From Begonia masoniana (lineage: Eukaryota; Streptophyta; Magnoliopsida; Cucurbitales; Begoniaceae): a stretch of DNA of 64,000 nt. The position numbers and the translations under genes were made by a program. The notes below the pieces were generated by a model, which was not told the origin of the DNA, did no database searches, and saw nothing but the letters and a program-made list of their open reading frames with translations. Positions 1,019 through 62,852 of this stretch are shown here, piece after piece; position 1 is the first letter of the stretch; every line of letters begins with the position of its first letter. The stretch lies in the NCBI GenBank assembly GCA_022432975.1, contig CM039502.1, forward strand, positions 73,055,497 to 73,119,496, in the 5' to 3' direction.

Positions 1019-2600
1019 ATACTCAACTACGCTACTGCCCAAATCATCTATCGAGTGCCTCTAATTATCTCTTGGTAATAACAATTCCTACATCTCCAAA
1101 ATTTTGACTTCACCTAACTCTACCCTCCATGGCCTAAAGCATTCATCACTTAGACCCTTAAATCTCTCTAACTTAGTTCTCAACTCTAGCTTTTCCTCTA
1201 ACTACATTCACTTAATTATTTTTTCTAATCTCATATTCATCAACACTTACATACTATCTTAACCTCATTTCTCCTAAGATATCTTAATACCGTAACACTA
1301 AGAACTCAGTACATAAACATCTTACCCAAAATCCTTAAGCTTTAACTTCCTTTCTACTCGCCTAACATATCGTTCTATCTCTCACACCTAATTACCTCGA
1401 ACAATCATGATATTTCATTAATCACCCTAACACTATCCATGTATAGCTCTCACTACTTAAATTATTAACTATCATTTCAAAGTATATTATAAATTCTCAA
1501 ACTTATGATCACTAAACTCAATTTAGTCAACTACTACTTCAGTCAGCACCAAACACTCTCAAATCATGAGGTCTAAACTAACTCGTTCCCAACTTATTCC
1601 AATCCTCAAAGTATACTCACTCACATAAGACTAAAATCTGCCGAATAGACCTTTTATCTAAGTCCTCAATTTTAAAAATCCTTTCTATTTTACTATCCCA
1701 TTTCTTAATAATCTAAGCTTTCATACATCTCTCAAATTCAACTTATTTCCAAGTTCACTAACATCGTATACATCATTCTAACTATATCTCTCAATACCCA
1801 ATAGTTTGACCCTCTAATATCTCAAGGTCTAATAGCTTTCAACTTGAAATAAATTTCTTCCTATTTCTATCCTCGATCTAATTAATATGAACACTCCTAC
1901 ATGATTCCTCAGATTCCACAATCACCCTCTTACCTCAAACAATCACATCCTCTAAAAGTGATAATCACAATTTACTTAAACTAGACGCTCAAATACAATA
2001 TACATTTACCACAATTTAGGGTGTCTCCCAGTAACTTCAAACTCCTCTCAGGTTCATCGTATCTCAGTACTCCCAAGGATTTGCTAACTATGGTCAAATT
2101 TCTATCTATTTTAATCTTATCCTTAAAGGTAACAATCCTAGACATACCATTCTTACAAACACCTAGATTAACACTAAGATATATCGCCTTACATTCCACC
2201 CAACATGTTCGCATACCACTAAAGATATAACTCATACCTTTCATAACGACTATCACTAAATTTAACTCGGATCGACCCTACCCTTTTTCTCACATTCCTA
2301 GGGTATCAGACTTACTCTCATCCTAAGATTCTCTAATATTTGTTTCAATTTCTCCAATAAAATTCCTAGCTATGCGAACTATCGATTACTACGTCTATAA
2401 ATTGACTAAAGGGATCCACCAAGGTTGTCTCGGTACACTCGGGGTTTCGTTCTACTCCTAAACAAGGTTAAGCAATCAATCTTAGCTATAAACAACTAAA
2501 AGCAAAGAAATACTTATAGTCGGTGAAGCACGCTGCATGGCGGCCGGCATTGTCGGGTAATCCTTTGAACGAATCGGCCATTTTGCTCTGATACCATCTT
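1019..2600 (-). mobile_element. Degraded non-coding internal region of a gypsy-type LTR element
   Basis: AT-rich and C-rich DNA with no frame that matches a retroelement domain. Its right end carries a primer-binding-site complement (GCTCTGATACCA, 2586-2597) directly next to the LTR at 2601. The text before that (TAATCCTTTGAACG) resembles the corresponding leader of the chromovirus near 62812-62823. Phrases near 1090 also resemble 54640-54670. I infer a large non-autonomous or fully decayed element oriented on the minus strand. Confidence 0.6.
2586..2597 (-). promoter_or_regulatory. Primer-binding site (initiator tRNA-Met type)
   Basis: The minus strand reads TGGTATCAGAGC, which is the usual plant PBS complementary to the 3' end of initiator methionine tRNA. 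It lies 3 bp from the LTR that starts at 2601, so that LTR is the 5' LTR of a minus-strand element. Confidence 0.85.
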
Positions 2601-3265
2601 GTAACGCCCTCGAACCCACCCTGGCTCGGTGCGTTACATTGCTAACCAATCCCACGCTAAAACATAATTTAAGATAAAACTGACACAGCGGAATGTAAAT
2701 CTAAGTCTCCCAAAGCTCTCTCTCATCTCATATCTAACTGCCTAGACTTACTGATTTCCCTTAATTCTAACCGTTGAATACCACAGCATCTTCACTAAAA
2801 ATTTTGACAAAGTAACGCCTGAAAAAGGCGCCTCCAAAATGCTAGGTACCTGCAAACGAATAAATCCCAACCAATCCAGAATATTCTTACACAATTATCC
2901 ACTCAACTATCCAGCATACGAAATCTCCATATAGCAGTAAAGAAAGAAACTATACTACTAACATCCCTAAGTGAAGAAAATTCATAGTATAGGGCGACGC
3001 ACCACCCTTAACTATGACTATAAACAACTAAAACAAATAACTATACAATAACTCTCAAAACATCAACCAAAAAGAAAGTTACGCATTCCCATCATTTCTA
3101 CAAACAAACATTTATAATAAACTACCCAAAAGACAAAGCCCACATCCCCCAAAGACCATGGTCGAGACGCCCCAACAAGTACCCGCACCGGCATACCGCG
3201 TACCTCACCGACTGCGTCCCAACCCTAGCTTTCCTCGTAGCTCTAACCTGTACTCCTGTCGTCAC

Positions 3266-4011
3266 CTACACCACAGAACACACACACACACGTAAGCTTA
3301 CGCTTAGCAAGTAGGGGATAACAAATATAAACAAGCACAATGCACACACAACAAACCGACTCAACACAACACAATCTCTCACACGTAACCCTAACACATG
3401 CAGTTTTTACTCGCTCAGTTGCTCTTGTTTCGTGTGCGTTTCGTTGCTCATTCACGTAATTCATCACAAATGCCAAACCACAACTCTAGTAGTCCCTCGC
3501 AGGTACCACCTTAACGCGACTGGGAAACTCTACCAGAGTTCCTCGCAGGTGCTACCCTAACGCGACTGGGTGACTTAACTCTGCTAGTCCCCCCGTAGGT
3601 ACCACCTTAACGCGACTAGGAAACTCCGCTAGAGTTTCTCGCAGGTGCTACCCTAACGCGACTGGGTGACTCTAACTCTGCTAGTCCCCCCGCAGGTACC
3701 ACCTTAACGCGACTAGGAAACTCCGCTAGAGTTCCTCGCAGGTGCTACCCTAACGCGACTGGGTGACTCTAACACAACCACATTACGTTTCAACTCACAC
3801 CGCTCTTTACGTTTCAATCTCACCATTCAAAACCATGCTAAAATCCGTTCGTTTCGTAGTTTCAAAACAATGATGCATGTCCAGGCAATACTCAAACACC
3901 AAATGAAATAAACAACCAACAACAATCAAACAAAGCAATCAAACAACAAATAGTTTCCTACTGTTCCGTGGTGTAGGCCCGAAGGCAACAAAACACACGT
4001 CCACTACTTAC
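3266..4011 (-). other. Putative structured LTR intron, family C
   Basis: On the minus strand the segment opens with CAG|GTAAGT (exon CTG at 4012-4014 on plus) and closes with GTGGTGTAG|GTGAC. The arm CCTACACCAC (3968-3977 on plus reads its complement) pairs perfectly with GTGGTGTAGG at the acceptor (3265-3274). The tandem array at 3485-3775 lies between the arms. Splice-site resemblance and pairing are seen directly; actual splicing is inferred. Confidence 0.5.
3485..3775. repeat. Tandem repeat, ~105-bp units made of two ~52-bp halves
   Basis: About three copies alternate the half-units CGCAGGTACCACCTTAACG and CGCAGGTGCTACCCTAACG, each followed by CGACTGGG or CGACTAGG. The array sits inside the putative LTR intron of family C. 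Confidence 0.9.
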
Positions 4012-5251
4012 CTGGTTGCTCTGTTTTCCCTAGCTCGCTTCTATCGATCAATTCCTTCGTTCGACGACCTAAATAACAAAAATTTAGCTTGATAAGTTCT
4101 CAATACAATCTAAGGAAATTTTCTATCTAAAACTAACAATACTTAAAACACATTACTCTCACAAATCACCAAAACCCGATTTTTACACAATTTTGACCGT
4201 CAAACTTCAAACGGTCATAACTTTCTCGTTTTTCAACGGATTTCGACGTGCCACCCCAATTCGGAAATCTCTACACGTCTATTATCCATTCAAACACTCA
4301 AATTAACCAAACAACACACGTAGCCAATTCGAAATGCACAGACCAGAACCGGTTACACATTTGTATAAAAAACTGGTTTTGTGTAATTTAATTCCAATCC
4401 ATAATCTAATCCCTCTAACCACCTAAACTAATGCATCCAACAATTAAATGATCAAAAATAGGAAAGAAAACCAACATTTAAGCTCAATTTTCGGAGGTCA
4501 CACTTAGGGTTTTCCAAACCCTAAGCAAATTCACCCAAAACCCACTAAAAACCCTTAAAAACTAACCCTAACCAACATTAAACTAAAAACCATTTATTTT
4601 TACCTCAAAAACCCTTGAAAACCTCTTGATGAAATGAAGAAATGAAGCTTCAATGGCTGCCAAGGAGAATCGTGGAGCAAGGGGAAGAAGATGATAAAAT
4701 TTGGTTCAATTTTGTCTTTTTAACCTAAAAGTTTTTCCACTTTTAATTTCCACCTAACAAGTTTTTAATTTTTACACTTAAACTCTCACTTTTTCCCGTC
4801 TCATTTCTTCCAACGTGATGGCTTCTTCTTTCACCCGTTTTCTATCATTTATTTCATAAATTTTTAAATTTCTATTGGTTATCAAAACTTTTGACTTTTC
4901 AAAATTGTTTTGGTTTGAATTTTCAACCATTCTTTACTTACTTTTTGACTTTTCAACTATTCTATTACCTTTTCTTCTCTTGACTTTTCCAATGTGAATC
5001 AACAATTAAATCCCACTTTTTCTTCCATTTATTTCACACATTTTACTTGAAATTTGATTGGTTTAAATACTTGGACTTTTCAAACCAAAAATTCTCAACC
5101 AATCACAAGTAAGTTTGAATTGTCAAAGTCTTCCACCATACTTCATCCACTCCAATTTCATATTTAATTTCCTAATACAACTCTTGCTAATTGAATTTCC
5201 CATAACCCTTCTAAGGCTACACTCGTTACTAGAAAAATCTCGAGTGTTACA

Positions 5252-20841: not shown

Positions 20842-22462
20842 TGTAACGACCCCTTTTTCCAGCAAGATATTGTCTGCTCTGGGGATTGGGCCATAACCCA
20901 ATATCCTCCCCTCACGGCTTTGTTTGGCGAGGACTTCCCAGTCGGTCACCCAACCTGGTACTACTCTTGCCGAAGCATTTTTAACTTCAGAGTTCGTATG
21001 GGATCCGTTGTCAATTGTGCTCCAAAACGCGTCTTGCTATCTTGGGAGGGTCTCTTTACATATGTTTCATTTCCACATACTTCCCCAAGCGATGTGGGAT
21101 TGTGACGACCCCCTTTTTACGACCCGTCACCTTCCGGTTCGCCCGCGCAGACGTACTGTCATCCGGGTTCCGGTTCGTGCAGCCATCGTACACATACTTA
21201 CACATCCGAGTCATCACAATCACCCCCCCTTGGGGGCCCAACGTCCCCGTTGGCCACATTTTTGATTGGGTACAGGCTCTGATACCATTTGTAACCCCTT
21301 TTCCCAGCAAGATATTGTCCGCTCTGGCACGGCTTTGTTTGGCGAGGACTTCCCAGTCGGTCACCCAACCTGGTACTACTTTTGCCGAAGCACTTTTAAC
21401 TTCAGAGTTCGTATGGGATCCGTTGTCAATTGTGCTCCAAAACGCGTCTTGCTATCTTGGGAGGGTCTCTTTACATATGTTTCATTTCCACATACTTCCC
21501 CAAGCGATGTGGGATTGTGACGACCCCCTTTTTACGACCCGTCACTTTCCGATTTGCCCGTGCGGATGTACCGCCATCTGGGTTCCGGTTCGTGCAGCCA
21601 TCGTACACATACTTACACATCCGAGTCATCACAATCACCCCCCCTTGGGGGCCCAACGTCCCCGTTGGCCACATTTTTGATTGGGTACAGGCTCTGATAC
21701 CATTTGTAACCCCTTTTCCCAGCAAGATATTGTCCGCTCTGGGGATTGGGTCGTAGCGCAATATCCTCCCATCACGGCTTTGTTTGGCGAGGACTTCCCA
21801 GTCGGTCACCCAACCTGGTACTACTTTTGCCGAAGCACTTTTAACTTCAGAGTTTTTATGGGATCCGTTGTCAATTGTGCTCCAAAACGCGTTTTGCTAT
21901 CTTGGGAGGGTCTCTTTACATATGTTTCATTTCCACATACTTCCCCAAGCGATGTGGGATTGTGACGACCCCCTTTTTACGACCCGTCACTTTCCGATTT
22001 GCCCGTGCGGATGTACCGCCATCTGGGTTCCGGTTCGTGCAGTCATCGTACACATACTTACACATCCGAGTCATCACAATCACCCCCCCTTGGGGGCCCA
22101 ACGTCCCCGTTGGCCACATTTTCGATTGGGTACAGGCTCTGATACCATTTGTAACCCCTTTTCCCAGCAAGATATTGTCCGCTCTGGGGATTGGGTCGTA
22201 GCGCAATATCCTCCCATCACGGCTTTGTTTGGCGAGGACTTCCCAGTCGGTCACCCAACCTGGTACTACTTTTGCCGAAGCACTTTTAACTTCAGAGTTC
22301 GTATGGGATCCGTTGTCAATTGTGCTCCCCAAGCGATGTGGGATTGTGACGACCCCCTTTTTACGACCCGTCACTTTCCGATTTGCCCGTGCGGATGTAC
22401 CGCCATCTGGGTTCCGGTTCGTGCAGTCATCGTACACATACTTACACATCCGGGTCATCACA
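20842..22462 (-). mobile_element. Cassandra TRIM tandem array: four LTRs, three internal domains
   Basis: Four LTRs at 20842-21218, 21290-21633, 21705-22078 and 22150-22462 alternate with three 71-bp internal domains. Each internal domain carries a PBS complement (GCTCTGATACCA). Ends are TGTAACGACC...CATCACA, and the whole array is flanked once by the 5-bp duplication GCCTT (20837-20841 and 22463-22467). The LTRs carry 5S rRNA-like sequence, which identifies Cassandra. LTR 2 lacks ~35 bp and LTR 4 ~60 bp. It encodes no protein; it depends on enzymes of other elements. Confidence 0.93.
20932..21008 (-). promoter_or_regulatory. 5S rRNA-like segment in Cassandra LTR 1
   Basis: The minus strand reads GGATCCCATACGAACTCTGAAG then GGTTGGGTGACC...GGGAAGTCC, close to plant 5S rRNA with its C box. 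The A box region is altered (AAGTTAAAAATGC instead of AAGTTAAGCG). Equivalent copies lie near 21346-21422, 21795-21871 and 22240-22316. Confidence 0.8.
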
Positions 22463-28765: not shown

Positions 28766-29714
28766 TGTGACGACCCGTCTTTCAACGGACTGATAAGGAA
28801 CCACCTATTCTCCGCGGATCCTGGGGCTGACCTGGGCCGGAGGTGGGTAAAGCTCCGCGGATCCTGGGGCTGACCTGGGCCGGAGTGGTTTCTCCGTTGA
28901 AGCAGGGGCCGTTACGAACCCACATTGCTTGGGGAAGTACATGGAAATGAAACATATGTAAGAGATCCCTCCCTAAATAGCAAGACGCGTTTTGGAGCAC
29001 AATTGACAACGGATCCCATAAGAACTCCGAAGTTAAGCGTACTCCGGCGAGAGTAATTCCAGGTTGGGTGACCTCCCGGGAAGTGCTCTCGCCAAACAAA
29101 GCCGTGAGGGGAGGATATTGGGCTGCGGCCCAATCCCCGGAGCGGACAATATCTTGCTGGGAACAGGGGTCGTTACAAATGGTATCAGAGCCTGTACCCA
29201 ACCGGAAATGTGGCCAACGAGGACGTTGGGCCCCCGAGGGGGGGTGATTGTGACGACCCGTCTTTCAACGGACTGATAAGGAACCACCCGTTCTCCGCGG
29301 ATCCTGGGGCTGACCTGGGCCGGAGTGGTTTCTCCGTTGAAGCAGGGGCCGTTACGAACCCACATCGCTTGGGAAAGTACATGGAAATGAAACATATGTA
29401 AGAGATCCCTCCCTAAATAGCAAGACGCGTTTTGGAGCACAATTGACAACGGATTCCATAAGAACTCCGAAGTTAAGCGTACTCCGGCGAGAGTAATTCC
29501 AGGTTGGGTGACCTCCCGGGAAGTGCTCTCGCCAAACAAAGCCGTGAGGGGAGGATATTGGGCTGCGGCCCAATCCCCAGAGCGGACAATATCTTGCTGG
29601 GAACAGGGACTCCTGGGAAGTGCTCTCGCCAAACAAAGCCGTGAGGGGAGGATATTGGGCTGCGGCCCAATCCCCAGAGCGGACAATATCTTGCTGGGAA
29701 CAGGGGTCGTTACA
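28766..29714 (+). mobile_element. Complete Cassandra TRIM
   Basis: LTR 1 (28766-29177) begins TGTGACGACCCG and ends GTCGTTACA; LTR 2 spans 29249-29714. The PBS TGGTATCAGAGC is at 29180-29191 and a purine-rich run (GAGGGGGGG) precedes LTR 2. The 71-bp internal domain has no ORF. The element is flanked by a perfect 5-bp duplication TCCAC (28761-28765 and 29715-29719). LTR 1 has an extra ~47-bp tandem copy of TCCGCGGATCCTGGGGC, and LTR 2 repeats its last ~100 bp. The open frames here are chance. Confidence 0.95.
29009..29084 (+). promoter_or_regulatory. 5S rRNA-like internal promoter in Cassandra LTR
   Basis: ACGGATCCCATAAGAACTCC, GAAGTTAAGCG (A box), GCGAGAGTA (intermediate element) and GGTTGGGTGACCTCCCGGG (C box) follow in 5S order and spacing. 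In plant 5S genes these boxes recruit TFIIIA and Pol III. LTR 2 has the same block at 29449-29524. Confidence 0.88.
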
Positions 29715-40815: not shown

Positions 40816-41198
40816 TGTGATGACCCGAATGGAATGTGTACGTATGTGTACGACTGCGGGGCAAACCTCGGGTTGCGGGGTGGATGGATCCCGGATTCGA
40901 GTATAGGCGAATCCCGGGTCGTAAAGAGGGGTCGTCACAATCCCACATCGCTTGGGGAAGTATATGGAAATGAAACATATGTAAAGAGGCCCTCCCAACA
41001 TAGCAAGATGCGTTTTGGAGCACGATTGGCAACGGATCCCATAAGAACTCCGAAGTTAAAAGTGCTTCGGCGAGAGCAATTCCAGGTTGGGTGACCTTCC
41101 GGGAAGTTCTCGCCAAACAAAGCCGTGAGGGGAGGATATTGCGCTACAGCCCAATCCCCAGAGCGGACAATATCTTGCTGGGAAACGGGGTCGTTACA
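40816..41198 (+). mobile_element. Cassandra solo LTR nested in the copia 5' LTR
   Basis: It runs from TGTGATGACCCG to GGTCGTTACA, flanked by a perfect ATAAG duplication (40811-40815 and 41199-41203). The 5S-like core at 41032-41106 keeps AAGAACTCCGAAG and GGTTGGGTGACC but has AAGTTAAAAGTGC in place of the A box. The first 100 bp resemble the array at 20842-22462 more than the element at 28766. Confidence 0.93.
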
Positions 41199-48980: not shown

Positions 48981-49518
48981 TGTAGCACCCGATTTCATTG
49001 AGCCAACTTATTTTGTCAACTAGTAGTGAATGTTTTATAGGTGAAATTGAGAGAAATTAGTGATTAGGCTAATGAGTGACTAGGCGAGGGCATAATGGTA
49101 AATTGAGATATAAAGTGGATAACCTATTTAAGGGAAGAAGTTATGCGTTTAATGCACAGTAGCCGCCACCCTATTACCATTTCCCTTCGTTGATTTTCAG
49201 CTCAGCTCAGCAGACTTCCTTCCGACATTTTCCTCTCTGATTTTCTCCATTCTAGGTGAGTTTTATTTCATTTTACTTGCTGTTTTAGTGATTAGATAAC
49301 AGAGAGATTGTAGGGGAGTGTTCGTGAATGCTGTGAGTGAGAGTTAGTTTCGAGTTTTGGGGAGAACCAGGAATGCTCGACGAACAGAACTTCCAACTAG
49401 TTTCCCTAAGATTTCTAAATAGTTTAGAATGAAGTTTAGTAATGCGGTGCTCTGTTTACGATTATAGGTGAGCAGACTTCCGAAGTAGCTAACAACCAGA
49501 CAATCTCCAGGAGACCAG

Positions 49519-49999
49519 GTAAGTTAAGTATGCTTGTGCCTTCGGGCCTACATCACAAAACAGTAGGATTATGTTTGCTTGAATGTGTTTGTATGTCATG
49601 CATTATATTTTGAAAGTATGCAAAAATGAATTTACATGAAATGGTATGGTAAGGAATGAACAGACTGTAACAGATAAACTATTAAGGGAACTAATCCGCC
49701 CCTTAACTTATGAAGGGATTTATACTTTGGGAGAAGTGATCTAACTCCCAATTTCACAGGGGGATCTGAACAGTTGTTAAGGGAACTAATCCGCCCCTTA
49801 ATCGAGGGAGAGGATGTATGACTTTGGGAGAAGTGATCCAACTCCCAATTTCACAGGGGGATCAGATCAGAAACGAATGCATATGCAACTGAGATGAGAA
49901 AGTAGAAACTGCATGTTTAGGAATTTATGTTTCAGCATTCCATTTCATTACTGCTTTACTTACTTAGCATTAGGCTAATAGATGAGTTTTGTGATGTAG
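49519..49999 (+). other. Putative structured LTR intron, family A
   Basis: The donor is CAG|GTAAGT (boundary 49518/49519) and the acceptor GATGTAG|GTGAAG (49999/50000). CCTACATCACAAAAC (49547-49561) pairs perfectly with GTTTTGTGATGTAGG (49986-50000), so the acceptor AG is inside the stem. The hairpin units at 49680-49865 lie between the arms. Splicing is inferred, not shown. Confidence 0.55.
49680..49865 (+). repeat. Two 95-bp hairpin units in solo LTR A
   Basis: TTAAGGGAACTAATCC starts at 49682 and 49777. Each unit has TTAAGGG/CCCTTAA and TTGGGAG/CTCCCAA stems with 11-nt loops. Confidence 0.9.
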
Positions 50000-50379
50000 G
50001 TGAAGAAGTGACAGCAGGTGTGTTCTCTGAGTTTGTTGAGAACTAGGCAGGTTGGAGGGGTGCATTCATGCATCGATCTGGCAACTGATGAGGCGGTTTA
50101 ACTGGTGGCAGTAGATGAGAAGGTTCGGTGAACCATGATTCAATTTAAGTATGTTGAGAGTTTTTATGACAGTGGTAGTTTTGATGTTTTGAATACAATT
50201 TGAGACTTTTCTGATAATGATACTCTGTTGGTTTTAATAGTGGTTTTTACCAAATTTTGGAGTAATACACGGATTTAAGTAGTTTTGAACGGTTTTTAGT
50301 AAAATGCTTAAGTTCTTTTGGTAGTCGGAGTTTTCTTTGTTTAGAGTAAAATTGTTGCTATGCTGTTTTTGTTGAGTGT

Positions 50380-50770
50380 TTTTGATCTATCGGTAGATGA
50401 TGTCTATCGGCAGATGTTGAGTATTTTTGATCTATCGGTAGATGATGTCTATCGGCAGATGTTGAGTATTTTTGGTCTATCAGTGGATTTAGTCCATCGG
50501 TAGAAGTCGAGAGTTTTGTCTATCGGTGGATTTAGTCCATCGGTAGAAGTTGAGAGTTTTGTCTATCGGTGGATGTAGTCCATCGGTGGATGTGAGTATT
50601 AGAATTTGTCGTTTTGTGACCGGGTGATGTCGAATATTATATCTATCGGAAGATGTAAGAAGAAATTTGTCGTTTTGCGATCGGTAGATGTGAATTGAGG
50701 ATTTTTGTCGTCTAGTGATCAGAAGACGCAGCTTGTTCTATTGGTAGATGTGAGCTGAGAATGTTTGTCG
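50380..50770 (+). repeat. Doublets of TCTATCGGTAGATG words, ~59-bp period
   Basis: GATCTATCGGTAGATG followed 17 bp later by TCTATCGGCAGATG repeats with ~59-bp spacing, then decays into TCTATCGGTGGAT and GTCGTTTTGTGA units. The word is nearly self-complementary. Confidence 0.85.
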
Positions 50771-51112
50771 TTTTGTGAGCTGTGAATGCGAGTGTAAAAC
50801 GTTGTCGTTCTGTGAATGGAAGATGTAATTTGTACGGCTTCTACCGCCGAGACTCTTTTGTCTCTATATCTACCGCTGGAACTATTCAGCGACAGATGTG
50901 TTCTGTTTTCTTTTCTTTTTCAACCAACTGTCTTCAATATTTTAACTATTTAATAAATGTTGTTCATACAAATGTTTTTCTGCTGTAAGTTTTAATGTTT
51001 TAAGGGTCAAGTCTTGATTGTTGAATGAAAATTTTAAAATTTTCTCAGAAAGTCATAGTTCGGTTTAGTATTATGTGTGGCGAACCGGGTTCAGATAACT
51101 CGGGGTGTTACA

Positions 51113-51183: not shown

Positions 51184-52142
51184 TGTAACGACCCAAACTC
51201 GAAACCCCTTTTCCTGGTCGTCACAAAACCTTACTTGACATTGACTTTGACTTAGACTGTTCCGCGTAAATTTCTTTTTTTTTTTATTAAACTATTTAAA
51301 CATTTAAAACAAGGCTAAAACAATTATTCGGTAAATATCGACTTGGTTTTTGAGTCCTTAAAATTCTTTAAAATGCGTGGGGTACGTTCGTAAAATACGT
51401 TTAAAATGTATGTAAAAGGTCGGGTTGAAACGTGTTTTGAAAAGTTAAAAATAAGAAAAATTCATTTTTTTTTGGGTCATGTGTGGTCCGGCGCGCGAGT
51501 GTCGTCCAGATAGTGCACGCGCAGCGCGCTGTCGCTGCACGCAGCAGAGCGCCGATCGATCGGCGTTGGGCGCCGATCGATCAGTGCTCTCTCTGCCCTC
51601 GCCCCAGCACTAGCGACGATCGCAGCGCGCACCTAGCGTGCCCTCCTTGCCTCTTTCGCGCCCATCTTCTTTCTTTCATTTTTTTCTTCACTTTTCTTCA
51701 TTCTTTTCACTTACATTTCACACCCACTCTTACCTTAAAATTTTCTGAACATAAAACGCTTCAAACCCCGAAAACTCGACTCGAAATCGTGCCAGTAAAC
51801 GTACGCAAAAACATGTTGAAAATTAACGAAAATGAACTGCATGGGTCGGTTTGAAAACTAACCATATCCCTACGAATTTAAAACTCTCAAGCAGTTCCAG
51901 TATATTTCCAAATTAAAAACTTCACTTCATATATATTCTAATACCCTAGCATTTACATCAAACGACTTATCCATGCATACATTTTTCCATATCATTTCCA
52001 TTCAACCTACTCAAAATACCTATACTCAAATTCCCACAGGTCAAAATCGCATTGACTGTTCAGTGCACTCCCACGGGCACCCTTCTTCAACCTGCGTGTT
52101 CATCTAGCGGAGGAACGTCTTCCTCACTTGTTTCGAGTTCAC

Positions 52143-52592
52143 CTACACCATAAAGATGCCTATGAGATAAATCTCAGTAAATTCTACGTAAATGTCAATG
52201 CATGAATATGTATATGCAATTTTCATTAATTTCGTCCATTCATTTTATTTATCATTCCATATCAGTCGTCTTAGTCGTCTCATTTTAGTCGTCTCAATCA
52301 TCTCATTTCAGTCGTCTATTTAGGACGTCTCATTTCATTTTCTTTCATGACTTCGTGCATAAATCCATTTTTCATGACATTTGTAAAACGATGATGCATG
52401 GCAATTTAATACATAACATAAACACAAAACACATGTATACCATCAAAACAACACAAAAGTATAACTTATAAAACAACTAAACCTAAACTATCCATCCCAA
52501 GCGTAAAAACATACATTGCACCAAATATCCTCAACAATAAAACTCGACTTATGGTGTAGGCCAATCAGCCACAGTAAGTCATAAGAACTTAC
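52143..52592 (-). other. Putative structured LTR intron, family B
   Basis: On minus: CAG|GTAAGT at 52593/52592 and TATGGTGTAG|GTGAAC at 52143/52142. The arms CCTACACCATAA (complement of 52549-52560) and TTATGGTGTAGG (complement of 52142-52153) pair over 12 bp. The AGTCGTCTCATTT repeats at ~52262-52345 lie inside. Confidence 0.5.
52262..52345. repeat. Short tandem AGTCGTCTCATTT repeats
   Basis: Four to five imperfect units (TCAGTCGTCT, TTAGTCGTCTCA, TTAGTCGTCTCA, TCAGTCGTCT, AGGACGTCTCA). Confidence 0.8.
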
Positions 52593-55977: not shown

Positions 55978-56319
55978 TGTAACGCCCCGAGTTTCTGAAC
56001 CCAGTTTGTTACTCATAAACTTGAACTTGACTAAGAAGCTTTGGACTAAATTTAAAATTTCGCTCGAAAGCCTAAATTTGATATTTTCTAAAACCTCAAA
56101 ACATTTAGAGACTTGCAGCGGAAATCATTTGAGCAAAAATAGAGTTAAACAAAACTATAGAACAATGTTTGAATAATCAGTTGAGATGTTAGGGAACATT
56201 CGGCCAAAAGAAATAAGGTTTAAATCGCGAAATACTTTGATAGTTGCAAAGTCAAACTTGTCTGCCGCTGTACAAAGTCAACAAGAGGGCAGAAATAAAA
56301 CTAAAGGTCTCCACCGATG

Positions 56320-56730
56320 ACCTCAGCCGGAGGAGTCATTCTTCTAGCTTCAGCCGATCGCAAAACGACAAGTTTTGCTACTGCATCTACCGATGACGTT
56401 AGCCGGATGATTCGTTCATCCCGCCTCAGCTGATCACTAGACGACAAGTCTTTTACTCACGCCTTCCGGTATAAAATACTCGACATCATCCGGTTACAAA
56501 ACGACAATTCACATCCTACATCTTCCGATGGATTCAACACACGACATCCACCGGTGACTAAATGACAAAACTTCTACTACATCATCCGATGGATTTAACA
56601 CTCGACATCCACTGGTCACTAAACGACAAATGACATTCTACATCATCCGATGAATTTAACACCTGACATCCACCGGTCACAAAACGACAAATTTTCTACT
56701 TATATCTTCCAATGGCTTCCACTGAAGACA
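56320..56730 (-). repeat. CATCCGATGG/CATCCACCGG doublet array, ~62-bp period
   Basis: Units beginning near 56521, 56582 and 56643 read CATCCGATGGATTTAACAC, then CGACATCCACCGGTCAC and AACGACAAA. More diverged units extend to 56320. It is the reverse-strand counterpart of 50380-50770; the copy in the other LTR is at 63190-63600. Confidence 0.85.
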
Positions 56731-57304
56731 TCTTCTGATAGACAACAGAACAACAACTCAGCATCTGCCAATAGACATCGTCTATCAATAGAAAACAGAG
56801 TGACATTTCAACTACTCCTTGCTATACAAACACAACCCTGACTACGAAAAGGAATTTACTTACTTCACTGTAACTATTCAGAAACAATTCAAAACATTGC
56901 ATTACTCAAGATCCAGTGAGAACCAACATTAAAACTCAGCAAAATACTATTATTAGAAAGATCTCAAAGTCGTATTCAAAATATTGAAACCACTACTGTC
57001 ATGAAATCTCAACACACTTAAATTGAAACATTGTCAACTAAACCTTCACACCAACAGACATCAGTTAAACTGCCTCATCAGGATACCAAAGCGTGGCATG
57101 AATGTGCTTCAACAACTTCTCCTATTCCTCAGTAAATTCAGAGAACTCTTCAGTAGTTACCTCAACACCTACATCACAAAATTCATCTATTAGCCTAATG
57201 CTAAGCAAGTAAAGCAATAATGAAATGATATGCTGAAACATAAAACCTAAACATGCAATTTCTACTTTCTCATCTCAGTTGTACATTCGTTCGTTTATTG
57301 ATCT

Positions 57305-57495
57305 GATCCCTCGGTTCCCTTGGGAGTGGGATCAATTCTCCCAATATTATACATCCTCTACTCGATTAAGGGGCGGATGAATTCCCTTAATAGCTATTCT
57401 GATCCCTCAGTTCCCTTGGGAGTGGGATCAATTCTCCCAATGTTATACATCCTCTACTCGATTAAGGGGCGGATGAATTTCCTTAATAGCTATTA
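57305..57495 (-). repeat. Two 96-bp hairpin units (LTR A)
   Basis: TTGGGAG starts at 57320 and 57416; same structure as 125-310. Confidence 0.9.
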
Positions 57496-58189
57496 CATTT
57501 CAATCTGTACTTGCCTTTCCATGCCACTACATATAAATTCATTTTCGTATTCTTTCAAAAACATGATGCATAACACGTAGAAAATACTCAAGCATGCATA
57601 AACCTACTGTTTTGTGATGTAGGCCCGAAGGCACACACAATACTTCACTTACCTGGATTCTTGGAAAAATGTTTGGTTTCTAACTACTTCGGGTTCTGCT
57701 CAAACCTAAAACCGTAGACAGTGTATTAGTTAAACTTCATTCTAAACTATCCAGGAGTCTAAGGAAATTAGTTTGGAAGCTTAGATCTTCGTGTATTCCT
57801 GATTCTGCACTTAACCCGAAACTACACTCATTCACAACACTCCCAAAACACATACATTGTACTCCCTCTGTTATCTAACCGTCAAGTCATAAGGAAAAAT
57901 GAAGGAACTCACCTAAGTCGGAGAAATCGCTTGAGAAATCGAAGGGAGGGCCTCCTAGAGCACTCTGCTAAGCTGAGGAGCTGAGAGTCGAAAAGAATTG
58001 GAAAACAGTGGCGGCTACAATGCATTAAATCCAAAAATCTATTCCTTAAATACGTTATCCATTTTAAATTTCCAATTACTCTTATGCCCTTGCCTAGTCA
58101 TCCATTAACCCCACTTTTACTATTGTCATTAAAGTGTGTCATTAATTTAGAAAGAAATAAGACTTGGTTCTATAGAACCGGGTGTTACA

Positions 58190-59437
58190 ATCTACCTTTC
58201 TTAAAAAAAATTTTGTCCTCAAAATTCAGTACCTGAATAACTCTGGATATCGGTCCATCATGTCTTGTTGGCGCTCCCAAGTTGTCTCCTCTATGTTCTG
58301 GTTGTGCCATAAGACTTTTACCAGTGGAACTTCCTTGTTGCGCAACACTTTTACTGCATAGTCTAGGATCCTTACTGGTTTCTCCTCATAAGTAAGGGTA
58401 GGATGAACTTCAATGTCCTGCTGTTCCACAACTTGATTTGAGTCCCTTATGCACTTCTTTAACATAGAAACATGGAACACATTGTGTATCCCCTCCATAG
58501 AAGCCGGTAGCTGCAGCTGATAGGCTGCGTTCCCAACTCTCTTCAGAATAGTGAATGGTCCAATAAATCTGGGGTTCAACTTTCCTCTCTTCCCAAATCG
58601 CACAACTCCTTTGAACGGTGACACCTTGAGAAAAACTTCATCACCTATCTCAAACTCCAATTCTCTATGCCTGCAATCTGCATAACTTTTCTGTCGACTT
58701 TGAGCTGCCAAAATTCTCTGTCGGATGAGGGCAACCTTCTCAACAGTTTGCTGCACAAAGTCAGGACCAAGCAACTGTGCTTCACCAACTTCATCCCAGT
58801 ACAAAGGCGATCTGCATTTTCGTCCATACAATGCTTCATACGGTGTCATTCCTATTGTTGCCTGAAAACTGTTATTATAGGAAAACTCCACCAATGATAA
58901 GTATTTACTCCAAGATCCTTGAAAATCTAATATGCAAGCACGGAGCATATCCTCTAAGATCTGAATAGTTCTCTTGGATTGTCCATTTGTTTGAGGGTGG
59001 AAAGCTTTACTGAAATTAAGCTGCGTCCCCATAGCCTTGTGCAAACTCTTCCAAAACTTAGATGTAAATCTAGAGTCTCGGTCTGAAACTATAGTGCTTG
59101 GAACTCCATGCAGTCTAACAACTTCATGTACATACAACTCAGCAAGTTAGTCCATCGAGTATGTCATCTTTATCGGTAGAAAGTGGGCAGATTTGGTTAA
59201 ACGATCAACTATCACCCAGATTGCATCATGTCCCTTTGCTGTTCTAGGCAATCCCACAACAAAATCCATCTTTATTTGTTCCCATTTCCATTCAGGGACT
59301 GGTAGAGGTTGCAATGTTCCTGAGGGTCTCTGATGCTCAGCTTTAATCTGCTGACAACACAAACATGATCCTACATACTCTGCCACACTCCTTTTCATAC
59401 ATGGCCACCAATAATGCTGTTTAAGATCCTTGTACAT
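58190..59437 (-). pseudogene. Chromovirus integrase with C-terminal chromodomain, relic
   Basis: HHCC finger region (59437-59330: CCQQIK preceded by WWPCMKRSV), core [38 protein letters not shown] and [17 protein letters not shown]. The residue aligned with the catalytic Glu reads Lys in QSKRT. A stop (TAG, ~59147) splits the core. The frame 59137-58226 ends with [18 protein letters not shown] and [16 protein letters not shown], a chromodomain typical of Tekay/Del chromoviruses that directs insertion to chromatin. 58190-58225 is the region next to the 3' LTR. Confidence 0.92.
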
Positions 59438-59464
59438 CTTTGTACTTCCGGGGTGAACAGAAAA

Positions 59465-61873
59465 TCAAGAAGAATGTGCTTCAGAAAGAATCTCATCTCG
59501 AAGTTCCTTAATGGCAGGAACAAACCATCTATTTCTAAACTTAAGGATTCCATCAGCGGAATAGTTAAAATCTGATTTGTCCGTAGAATCCATGCTTAAC
59601 TTGTACTTGTTACACTCGTCATCATTCATCTGAGCTTCCTTTATTTTCTCTAAAATGGTAGTCTTTAAGGTTAAGGCTGAAAGTATAGCTGATACACTGG
59701 ATACTGCTTCTAGGTTAAACCTTTGGAATTCTGACTCTAAGGCTAATGGTATATTGAAAATCATAGTTGGGGTTGGTGTTGTTACTCTACTCAAAGCATC
59801 TGCCACAACATTTATTTTGCCGGGATGATATTTAATCTCGAAATCATAGTCCTTTACAAATTCCAACCATCGACGTTGCCTCATGTTTAGTTCTTTCTGT
59901 GTGAAAATATACTTCAGGCTCTTATGATCTGAAAATATCTCGCAAGATTGTCCATACAAGTAATGCCTCCAAATCTTAAGTGCAAATACCACTGCAGCTA
60001 ATTCTAAGTCATGTGTAGGGTAATTCTTCTCATGTGTTTTCAACTGCCTAGAGGCATAAGCTATTACATTTCCCTCTTGCATCAAGACACAGCCAAGTCC
60101 AACCTTGGATGCATCACAGTAAATGCTAAATTTACCATCTTCAACTGGAAGGGTTAAAATTGAAGCATTGGTCAGTTTCTTTTTCAGGGTCCGAAAACTA
60201 TGCTCACATTCGTCAGTCCATATATATTTCACATTTTTCCTTGTTAACCTAGTAAGGGGTGTAGCAATCTTCAAAAATCCTTCAATGAACTTTCTATAAT
60301 ATCCTGCTAGTCCAAGAAAAATCCTGATATCAGTAGCATTCCTCGGTTGGGGCCATTCATTAACTGCTTGAACCTTAGCTGGATCGACAGATATACCATC
60401 CCCAGAGATAACATGTCCTAGAAAGTGAACTTGGTCTAACCAAAATTCACACTTAGAAAACTTGGCGTATAGTTGGTGCTGTTTTAATACCTCCAACACC
60501 AAGGTCAGGTGCCTAGCATGCTCATCCTTAGTACGTGAATAGATTAAAATGTCATCTATGAACACTATGACAAACTTATCCAAATACTCATGAAACACTC
60601 TATTCATGAGATCCATAAAGGCTGCTGGTGCATTTGTCAATCCAAAGGACATGACCAAAAACTCAAAATGTCTATACCTTGTGCGAAAAGCAGTCTTAGG
60701 AATATCCTCAGATTTGACTTTCAATTGGTAATAACTGGACCTAAGGTCAATCTTAGAGAAAACACGTGTACCATTAAGCTGGTCAAATAAATCATCAATC
60801 CTTGGCAATTGATACTTGTTCTTGACAGTTAACTTATTTAATTCCCTATAATCAATGCACATTCGCATTGACCCATCTTTCTTTTTGACAAAAAGGACAA
60901 GTGCACCCCACGGTGAAAAGCTTGGGCGTATGAACCTTTTCTCCAACAGATCCTCCAACTGCTTCTTTAATTCCTTAAGTTCTGTTGGTGCTAGCCTATA
61001 TGGATTTTTAGACACAGGCTCGGCGCCGGGGTAAACATCTACAACAAATTCGATTTCCCTATCTGGTGGTAAACTAGGAAGGTCATCTAAAAACACTTCA
61101 GGGAAGTCTTGGACAATTAAGACATTTTGGGGTGTTGCTTTTCCTACGAATTGTGTATCTAGAACACTAGCCAAGAAGCATAGGTACTCTCTGCATGGTG
61201 AGGGTCTACAATTTATCGAAGTCATAACAGACATTTCCTCATTCTTCCTGAAAGCTTGGAAGGTATGATTTAAACCACCAGGGGGTTGGAATCTAACTAC
61301 TCCAGTCCTACAGTCGATTGTGGCATAATGTTTAAACAGCCAATCCATTCATAGGACTACATCAAATCCCATTATATCCATAATAATGAGATCAGCAGGT
61401 AGACTCACGCTTCCTACTAACACATCACTGTCAAGCATCACCTGGTTAGAGTGCATGCGTTCACCAGAGGGTAAAGCAACACTAAACACATGCAACTGTA
61501 CATCTAACTTAATAGAAAATGTAGATGCTATAAATGAATGTGTTGCACCAGAATCTATCAATGTAAAAGCAGGTATAGAGTTGACCAATATAGTACCTGA
61601 CACAACAGCAGGCTGCTCATCATCGCCCGACTCCATCATGGAGAATATCATCGGCTTAATCATAGCAGGGCCATTCTTAGGAGCTGGACAGTCCCTAATG
61701 ACGTGGCCAACCTTGTTACAGTTGAAGCATCGGGTGACTCTGGGCTTCGGGCAATCCCTGTATGTGTGTCCAATTTCCTCGCAATTGAAACACTTTCCCG
61801 AATCGAACCTGCATTCACCCAGGTGACTCTTCGAACATTTCGGGCATAGGGGAAACTTCCTGGCATCCGGCAC
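59465..61873 (-). pseudogene. Chromovirus protease-RT-RNase H relic
   Basis: The frame 61873-61349 has two CCHC knuckles (CFNCEEIGHTYRDC, CFNCNKVGHVIRDC) and the protease motif TLIDSGATHSFI. A TGA at 61349-61351 separates it from the 627-codon frame 61348-59465 with RT ([50 protein letters not shown]) and RNase H ([35 protein letters not shown]). A TGA after AHSS ends it before integrase. Confidence 0.94.
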
Positions 61874-62715
61874 TTTCTTTCCTGTTCCTTGGCTATGCTG
61901 GCCTTCACTAGGTCTCTTTATTCCACTTTGATGATGTGGCTGGACCGACTTTTATGGGACCTCTTTTGGTCCAGCACACTTCCTTTCAGCTTCTTCCACT
62001 TCCAGAGCAGTGGACACAACCTCGCTGAATGTCAAGCCTTTAATACCACAAAATTTAACCCCTCGGTAGATTTCTGGCTTCAGTCCATGCACAAATTTGA
62101 ATGCATTGTCCTCGTCCCTGTGAGCAAAATGTCCAGCAAACCTGGACAGGGACTCGAACTGCCTACTGTACTCGGCTACAGCCCTGTCTGCTTCAAGTTT
62201 AGAAATTCAAACTTCTTTGCGGTTTGGACAGTACTGTTGAAATACTTCTTGTAGAAAATGTCTTTGAATTGCGACCAAGGCATCGCCAAGACATCAGTGG
62301 TGGTCTCTATTGTTTCCCACCAGAGTTGAGCTTCACCAGCCAAGTGAAATGTCGCCAACGTGACCTTGTCTCCTTCTCCTATGTTGGCACACCTAAACAT
62401 ACTTTCAATCTTCCTAAGCCACCCTTCAGCAATAACTGGATCAGATGACTGTCCATCAAACGTGGGTGGTCTTAGTCTCCGGAATCTATCTCCAGAATGT
62501 TCATTGCTAGAACCCGAGTTGGCACTTCCTTGCACCTCTCGGTTCAACAGTACTCCTAGTTGGTCAGACTGTTGGTGCACTAAATCAGTTTGCTGACGCA
62601 CTAAGTCTGTCAGCTGCCTAATCACACTAGGATCCTCTTCACTTCTCACATTTGGCATTTCTCTTGGCACTCTAGGTCTCCCTGGGCATCTGGCCATTAT
62701 ACTAAATTCCTGCAC
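61874..62715 (-). pseudogene. Chromovirus gag relic
   Basis: ATG at ~62697 (MARCPGRPRVPREM), a coiled stretch of DLVRQQTDLVHQQSDQ, then the capsid text FDGQSSDPVIAEGWLRKIES and LAGEAQLWWETIE. There is a frameshift near 62180 and a TAA near 61951 before the zinc-knuckle region. Confidence 0.9.
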
Positions 62716-62852
62716 AGGGTTAATTACACTCTTAAATATCTACCAACTAAGGTTAACTTAAACACTTACAGTTGTTGAAGTACTTCCATGCAACGATCGA
62801 CACTGATGAGTAATCTTTTGAACGGTTTAACTGAATGTCTCTAATACCATAC
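62716..62852 (-). other. Leader and PBS of chromovirus
   Basis: CTCTAATACCAT (62839-62850) is a one-base variant of the tRNA-Met PBS complement, 2 bp from the LTR. Confidence 0.8.

Follow-up and report, generated by a model that had tools for sequence, protein, structure and literature searches.

In retroviruses the leader carries a structured splice donor, and only the unspliced RNA takes the intron into new copies. The LTR introns of Begonia masoniana described here resemble that arrangement in having a structured donor in the leader and an intron present in unspliced RNA only, but their donor and acceptor both lie in the LTR and are linked by interleaved covarying helices, which is not the case for the retroviral pair.

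According to the available part of a 2025 review, plant LTR elements are generally intron-free, the notable exceptions being Ogre and EVADE (PMC12786077). In the accessible sections of a 2019 survey of plant LTR elements, "intron" turns up solely in connection with Ogre and the reference cited for it (PMC6317226), while those of a sunflower nanopore study report splicing in other elements, with no Tekay in the expressed set (PMC7730604). As far as these excerpts describe them, Ogre and EVADE are like the Begonia case in that a plant LTR element has an intron spliced only in part and that spliced and unspliced RNAs coexist (PMC12786077; PMC6317226). In EVADE, however, it is the protease part that is removed, whereas the Begonia intron, the fold of which is conserved, lies within the LTR; on this position, an Ogre/EVADE-type intron acting on the gag-pol coding region was ruled out.

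Structured introns are also described outside plants. The zipper and downstream stems of yeast introns, in the portion of the source available (PMC12350175), differ from the Begonia design, in which the splicing signals themselves lie in helices, two of these (P0 and P1) are interleaved, and the whole recurs over several LTR families; set against the stem definition given there, P0 begins at nucleotide 1 and the end of P1 lies past the likely branch point. The nonconventional introns of euglenids share a fold that joins both intron ends, but in the sections available they are without conserved borders or a U1-complementary 5' end, whereas the Begonia introns have CAG|GTAAGT and TAG (PMC6221363; PMC4770533); with borders this canonical, a euglenid-type intron was ruled out. 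Among the titles and abstract openings listed, from literature lying mostly outside subscription journals, no structured LTR intron was described.

Structured introns in the window

The window, which is the whole 64,000-nucleotide stretch analysed (GCA_022432975.1, contig CM039502.1, positions 73,055,497 to 73,119,496 of the forward strand), contains LTRs of three families, A, B and C, with structured introns built in one order. The 5' strand of helix P0, comprising the 5' splice site and the nucleotides next to it, is followed by hairpin HP1, the 5' arm of helix P1, a variable middle, the 3' strand of P0, hairpin HP2 and the 3' arm of P1, which closes with the terminal TAG. The features are as follows.

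48981-51112, plus strand: LTR A (TGTAGCACCC...GTGTTACA), solo-LTR-like
49256-49467, plus: leader intron 1 of LTR A (GTGAGT...ATAG), delimited by eye; the matching intron is missing from a spliced retrocopy
49519-49999, plus: leader intron 2 of LTR A, the structured intron, 481 nt; the spliced retrocopy has its exons joined at this junction
49519-49528, plus: P0 5' strand of LTR A, the 5' splice site GTAAGT and 4 nt
49538-49547, plus: HP1 of LTR A, GCC-UUCG-GGC, immediately 5' of P1; recurrent, covariation test failed
49548-49561, plus: P1 5' arm of LTR A
49954-49963, plus: P0 3' strand of LTR A, CTTTACTTAC
49964-49978, plus: HP2 of LTR A, TTAGC-ATTAG-GCTAA; its 3' strand carries yUnAy at the base
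49986-49999, plus: P1 3' arm of LTR A, with the terminal TAG of the intron at its end
2600-5251, minus: LTR C, followed by PBS-like TGGTATCAGAGC at 2596
3266-4011, minus: structured intron of LTR C, 746 nt
4011-4001 with 3317-3307, minus: P0 of LTR C; HP1 at 3986-3977
3976-3962 with 3280-3266, minus: P1 of LTR C; HP2 at 3306-3293
52143-52592, minus: structured intron of LTR B, 450 nt
52592-52584 with 52185-52177, minus: P0 of LTR B; HP1 at 52570-52560
52559-52548 with 52155-52143, minus: P1 of LTR B; HP2 at 52176-52163
55978-58189, minus: 3' LTR of an A-family Ty3/gypsy element
57169-57652, minus: structured intron of this 3' LTR, 484 nt
57652-57643 with 57214-57205, minus: P0 of this intron; HP1 at 57632-57623
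57622-57609 with 57182-57169, minus: P1 of this intron; HP2 at 57204-57190
58226-62739, minus: gag, zinc-knuckle/protease, RT-RNase H and integrase-end (SH3_Tf2-1) frames, four separate frames (Pfam)
1-1019, minus: A-family LTR truncated by the window edge; P0, HP1, P1 5' arm and HP2 present

The A-family host is a Ty3/gypsy LTR retrotransposon, as given by its order of gag, protease and RT-RNase H together with LTRs and PBS, an assignment that holds for the A family only; for the other intron-bearing families, just two of 28 loci of at least 3 kb (L122 and L144) matched A-family element proteins. The window element matched SH3_Tf2-1 and gave no Pfam match to a chromodomain; it may be Tekay-like. 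The PBS-like TGGTATCAGAGC of LTR C presumably matches initiator Met tRNA. When the RT of the window was used in a protein search, the named relatives among the best 120 of 7,983 were nearly all flowering plants; one Ty3/gypsy RT near it (P0110), filed under a Snodgrassella MAG, is probably plant contamination.

The flanks of LTR A (GTCAG and GTAAG) mismatch at one of five bases, nucleotide 7 of its P0 (T) stands opposite a T, and the donor of the truncated A-family LTR is flanked by CAA, not CAG. By eye, a first leader intron 5' of the structured one is also present in LTR B (52999-52638) and in the complete A-family LTR of the element (57912-57706). At 20916-22333 (minus), 28991-29537 (plus) and 41012-41124 (plus) the window further contains seven 5S-rRNA-like stretches (Rfam, 39-49 bits), of which six belong to repeat units spaced 415-446 bp.

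Helices of the intron and their covariation

A first-pass annotation of this DNA had proposed a covarying long-range stem enclosing a putative leader intron in the three LTR families. Its arm pairs, 49547-49561 with 49986-50000 in LTR A (plus), 3968-3977 with 3265-3274 in LTR C (minus) and 52549-52560 with 52142-52153 in LTR B (minus), were all verified where it had placed them, and the junctions it predicted, 49518^50000, 4012^3265 and 52593^52142, are consistent with the sequence. The stem is real and corresponds to P1, but it is only one helix of a larger design: absent from that annotation were the pairing of the donor (P0), the branch-point-like motif in HP2, the interleaving of P0 with P1, the roughly 44,000 motif copies and two additional A-family copies in the window, one at 57652-57169 (minus) with both P1 arms and one running from 472 to beyond base 1 (minus), the 3' arm of which falls outside the window.

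Between families, similarity is confined to the two intron ends, and the middles differ. In P0, GUAAGU and the bases after it pair with a segment some 35-50 nt upstream of the intron end. The inner 3' strand reads CTTAC in 38, CTTGC in 10 and TTTAC in two of 50 introns, all able to pair with GTAAG, although selection was partly based on that string. Beyond this core the extension is family-specific, with AGAG facing CUCU and AAAG facing CUUU within the A family, and one AGAG copy facing CUUU. The P0 3' strand is contiguous with HP2 as anchored. HP1 lies immediately 5' of P1 in the best fit of 32/50 introns, its stem length being chosen by the fit. The stem length of HP2 was likewise fitted. 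In 50/50 introns the HP2 3' strand has at its base, near the 3' end of the intron, yUnAy, which we take as the likely branch point, and 20-22 nt separate HP2 from the intron end in 45/50. CTTAC was ruled out as a branch point, since 10/50 introns have CTTGC. Pairs 1-8 of P1 are standard in 392/400 cells (50 introns), and pair 6 occurs as T-A in 26, C-G in 15, A-T in seven and G-T in two. As P0 and P1 interleave, their joint formation would give a pseudoknot in which all three splicing signals are paired; we infer that they share one conformation, and they could instead be alternatives.

Two further observations concern families A and C. The intron middles carry tandem repeats of near-equal period, 95-97 bp (122-313, 57302-57493, 49682-49870, 3480-3769). 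A second GTAGG also stands right after the P1 5' arm (49560-49567; 3964-3957), so that, in place of P1, CCTAC could pair locally in a short hairpin, possibly a switch or a decoy of the acceptor arm.

P0, P1 and HP2 covary. A tree-aware null was applied to 51 distinct introns (from 54) with 127 columns, 200 simulations and column pairs at least 4 apart. Two pairs reached E < 0.05, both predicted: one in HP2 (E < 0.005; G-C 19, A-T 16, T-A 14, A-C 2; n = 51), which is the strongest covarying pair of that hairpin and sits at the free base n of yUnAy, and pair 6 of P1 (E = 0.015; T-A 27, C-G 15, A-T 7, G-T 2; n = 51). The third rank was taken by a non-pairing column pair (E 0.36) and the fourth by the best P0 pair (E about 1.1).

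Complementarity was also compared after swapping partners among cluster representatives at 28, 12 and 8 clusters (20,000 permutations, floor p = 5e-5), using an anchored set of 50 introns from which L177, missed by the anchor pattern, was left out of the 51. P0, P1 and HP2 favoured their own partners at all three levels (p 5e-5 to 5e-3). At 28 clusters, the own and swapped scores were 13.4 and 9.8 for the variable part of P0, 15.4 and 11.1 for the distal arm of P1, and 12.6 and 9.9 for HP2 (p = 5e-5 each), with the own partner best or tied in 7/28, 7/28 and 20/28, respectively; at 8 clusters, p was 6.5e-4 for P0, 3.5e-4 for distal P1 and 5e-3 for HP2. HP1 gave no covariation by the partner swap (p 0.5-0.9) or the tree-aware test. 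In a positional scan of 27 representatives, the own-partner excess was maximal at the predicted P0 (z 5.7, 5.9) and P1 (z 6.0), with runners-up at z 3.6 (P0 window) and 2.0. The earlier claim that the P1 arms change together is upheld by the own-partner excess and by pair 6, and burial of the acceptor in a stem gains support from the tree-aware null, the partner swap and the scan.

Of 20 regions retrieved later, 14 were usable, two being dropped without a usable site and four with fewer than 10/13 P1 pairs. Own against swapped scores were 14.5 vs 13.1 for P0 (p = 0.015; n = 14, relatedness uncontrolled) and 15.9 vs 11.6 for P1 (p = 5e-5; relatedness again uncontrolled, and P1 itself chose the acceptor); the GTAAG partner was present in 14/14 and yUnAy in 13/14. 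Energy ensembles, which cannot hold P0 and P1 together, favoured P1 (mean probability of the first 8 pairs >0.5) in 31/54 introns. Nucleotides 1-5 of P1 say little, because the search pattern prescribed them, one A-to-G variant that was tested apart; the searches likewise prescribed GTAAGT and TAG, and selection partly prescribed the inner strand of P0. Among copies of that variant, CCTGCA (C1:14604916, C1:44240351 and others), a recognisable 3' end was found in 15/20 regions and read TGTAG in 15/15, so that the pair becomes G-U and the pairing is neither broken nor proven; the compensated acceptor TGCAG, expected in such copies, occurred in 0/15 with a recognisable 3' end.

Genomic copies and a spliced retrocopy

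The whole 795-Mb genome was scanned for a donor-plus-arm pattern, CAGGTAAGT followed by a gap of 1-31 nt and CCTACA, which gave 22,063 + 21,835 = 43,898 matches against 13 for the reversed control. Among the matches listed, all of them within the initial 10.6 Mb of contig C1, HP1 preceded CCTACA in forms that include GCC-UUCG-GGC, GGCC-GAUU-GGCC, GGCC-CUUAA-GGCC and GGUC-AUUAA-GACC. At 56 donor-plus-arm sites, from 288 kb and 20 small regions, a 3' candidate was present at 44 and no 3' partner lay in reach at 12, so the motif does not always represent a whole intron; four of the 44 candidates were discarded as spurious (L163, L135 at 6167, L140, L138) and 40 kept.

Relatives elsewhere were also sought. 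A pattern scan of viral_contigs matched at least 120 stretches; of the 120 listed, none had TTCGGGCC, and one (L079) had a perfectly matching 9-nt partner no more than 1,500 nt away, which was put down to chance. Stricter patterns had no match in viral_contigs; in genome_contigs they hit seven contigs titled bacterial, attributed to chance by these titles. No relative was confirmed in the search of RT-protein loci.

Removal of the intron was followed with a 24-nt junction probe joining A-family exon 2 to exon 3 (at most 2 mismatches). At least two matches were obtained, both mismatch-free and lying on the same contig at a distance of 6,085 bp (G000:C9:42278031 and 42284116; L216 and L217), against none for the reversed control. 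The two look like the LTRs of one element: the LTRs are 1,410 bp long, CACAC stands at both outer flanks, albeit in CA-rich surroundings, the 5' LTR is followed by a PBS, and the stretch 5' of the 3' LTR matches the integrase end of the window element. They agree at 1,471/1,506 aligned positions, a rough figure given that the alignment extends past the LTR ends. Both are without intron 1 and intron 2 in sequence, the latter missing at the predicted junction, and the alignments of L217 agree with this. The break of intron 2 is fixed by the CCAG of exon 2, while that of intron 1 can be placed only within AAC.TAG, a word common to exon end and intron end.

The absence of both introns implies that they were spliced in vivo and that spliced RNA can enter the genome; splicing at these borders is thereby supported through one retrocopy, indirectly by way of reverse transcription, and with it the earlier claim of a leader intron. 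A similar donor-side probe found 9,950 intron-bearing matches, but 9,950 against two is no rate, since the junction probe needs an exon-3 form limited to some A-family copies. Only one intron-less element was found, and a spliced-junction probe for a second family (L129) had no match. That the intron is kept despite the spliced copy weakly suggests, from one event, that loss does not pay.

By its borders, CAG|GTAAGT and TAG|GT (which were part of the selection), its branch-point consensus and its removal at these borders, the intron is classed as a spliceosomal GT-AG intron, with spliceosome dependence predicted.

Possible roles of the fold

We give an even chance to the reading that these are masked leader introns of Ty3/gypsy LTRs, which would keep most RNA unspliced for reverse transcription. 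P0 would cover the 5' splice site, HP2 would hold the likely branch point and P1 would cover the 3' splice site, in an interleaved (pseudoknot) fold with HP1 stacked on P1. With donor, likely branch point and acceptor each held in a helix, strong splice sites would be hidden and splicing slow or partial, leaving unspliced RNA as the template for reverse transcription, so that the intron would be retained in most new LTRs; spliced RNA would probably serve translation. That P0 begins at nucleotide 1 suits masking. The restraint of splicing and this division of labour are inferred, as is the role in balancing spliced against genomic RNA that the first-pass annotation had suggested. More tentatively, an internal mimic of the 5' end of U1 snRNA, ACUUAC in the A family, may hold the 5' splice site.

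The covariation itself is also compatible with a fold that speeds splicing and with one that marks unspliced RNA. As a scaffold, the fold would profit from the likely branch-point A ending HP2, the first G of the intron beginning P0 and the contiguity of the P0 3' strand with HP2, by which the partners of the first step could abut. The uniform distance from HP2 to the intron end and the related stems of yeast introns, as excerpted (PMC12350175), point the same way. Against this, P0 pairs the U1-binding nucleotides themselves, and we consider an accelerating role rather unlikely. A signal for packaging, dimerisation or nuclear export in the unspliced RNA, overlapping the splice sites as a by-product, seems unlikely too. 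In retroviruses a packaging signal inside the intron marks the genomic RNA; here intron-bearing copies greatly exceed the single spliced element, and selective packaging alone could explain intron retention in genomic copies. A pseudoknotted export element is described for a mouse element, the musD MTE, in the available part of the review (PMC12786077). Packaging would not need P0, HP2 and P1 each to coincide with a splicing signal, however, nor the top covarying pair of HP2 to fall at the free n of yUnAy.

A self-splicing or new catalytic intron, to which the likely reactive nucleotides at helix ends of an interleaved fold might point, is highly improbable: CAG|GTAAGT and yUnAy fit the spliceosome, the intron middles are dissimilar between families, and no group II or other ribozyme family of Rfam reached its gathering score within the window, the search of 49400-50100 returning one weak bacterial sRNA match only (E 0.16). 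Hardly more credible is that the arms look paired merely through shared ancestry of the LTR families and chance. Many LTRs do have TGTAACACCC-like starts, but the partner-swap and positional tests compare the complementarity of cluster-specific segments, and pair 6 of P1, like HP2, is seen in several base-pair types.

To the question of how LTR retrotransposons allot their RNA to translation and to reverse transcription, the masked leader intron would offer a compact, testable RNA device, with about 44,000 motif copies in one genome and their natural variants as material for structure-function work. The retrocopy adds a natural record of the retrotransposition of spliced RNA, in the single instance found. 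If conserved helices do hold all three signals of a spliceosomal intron, this would provide a new model of how structure controls splicing in plants, in which the fold may decide what share of the element RNA is left whole for copying into new insertions.
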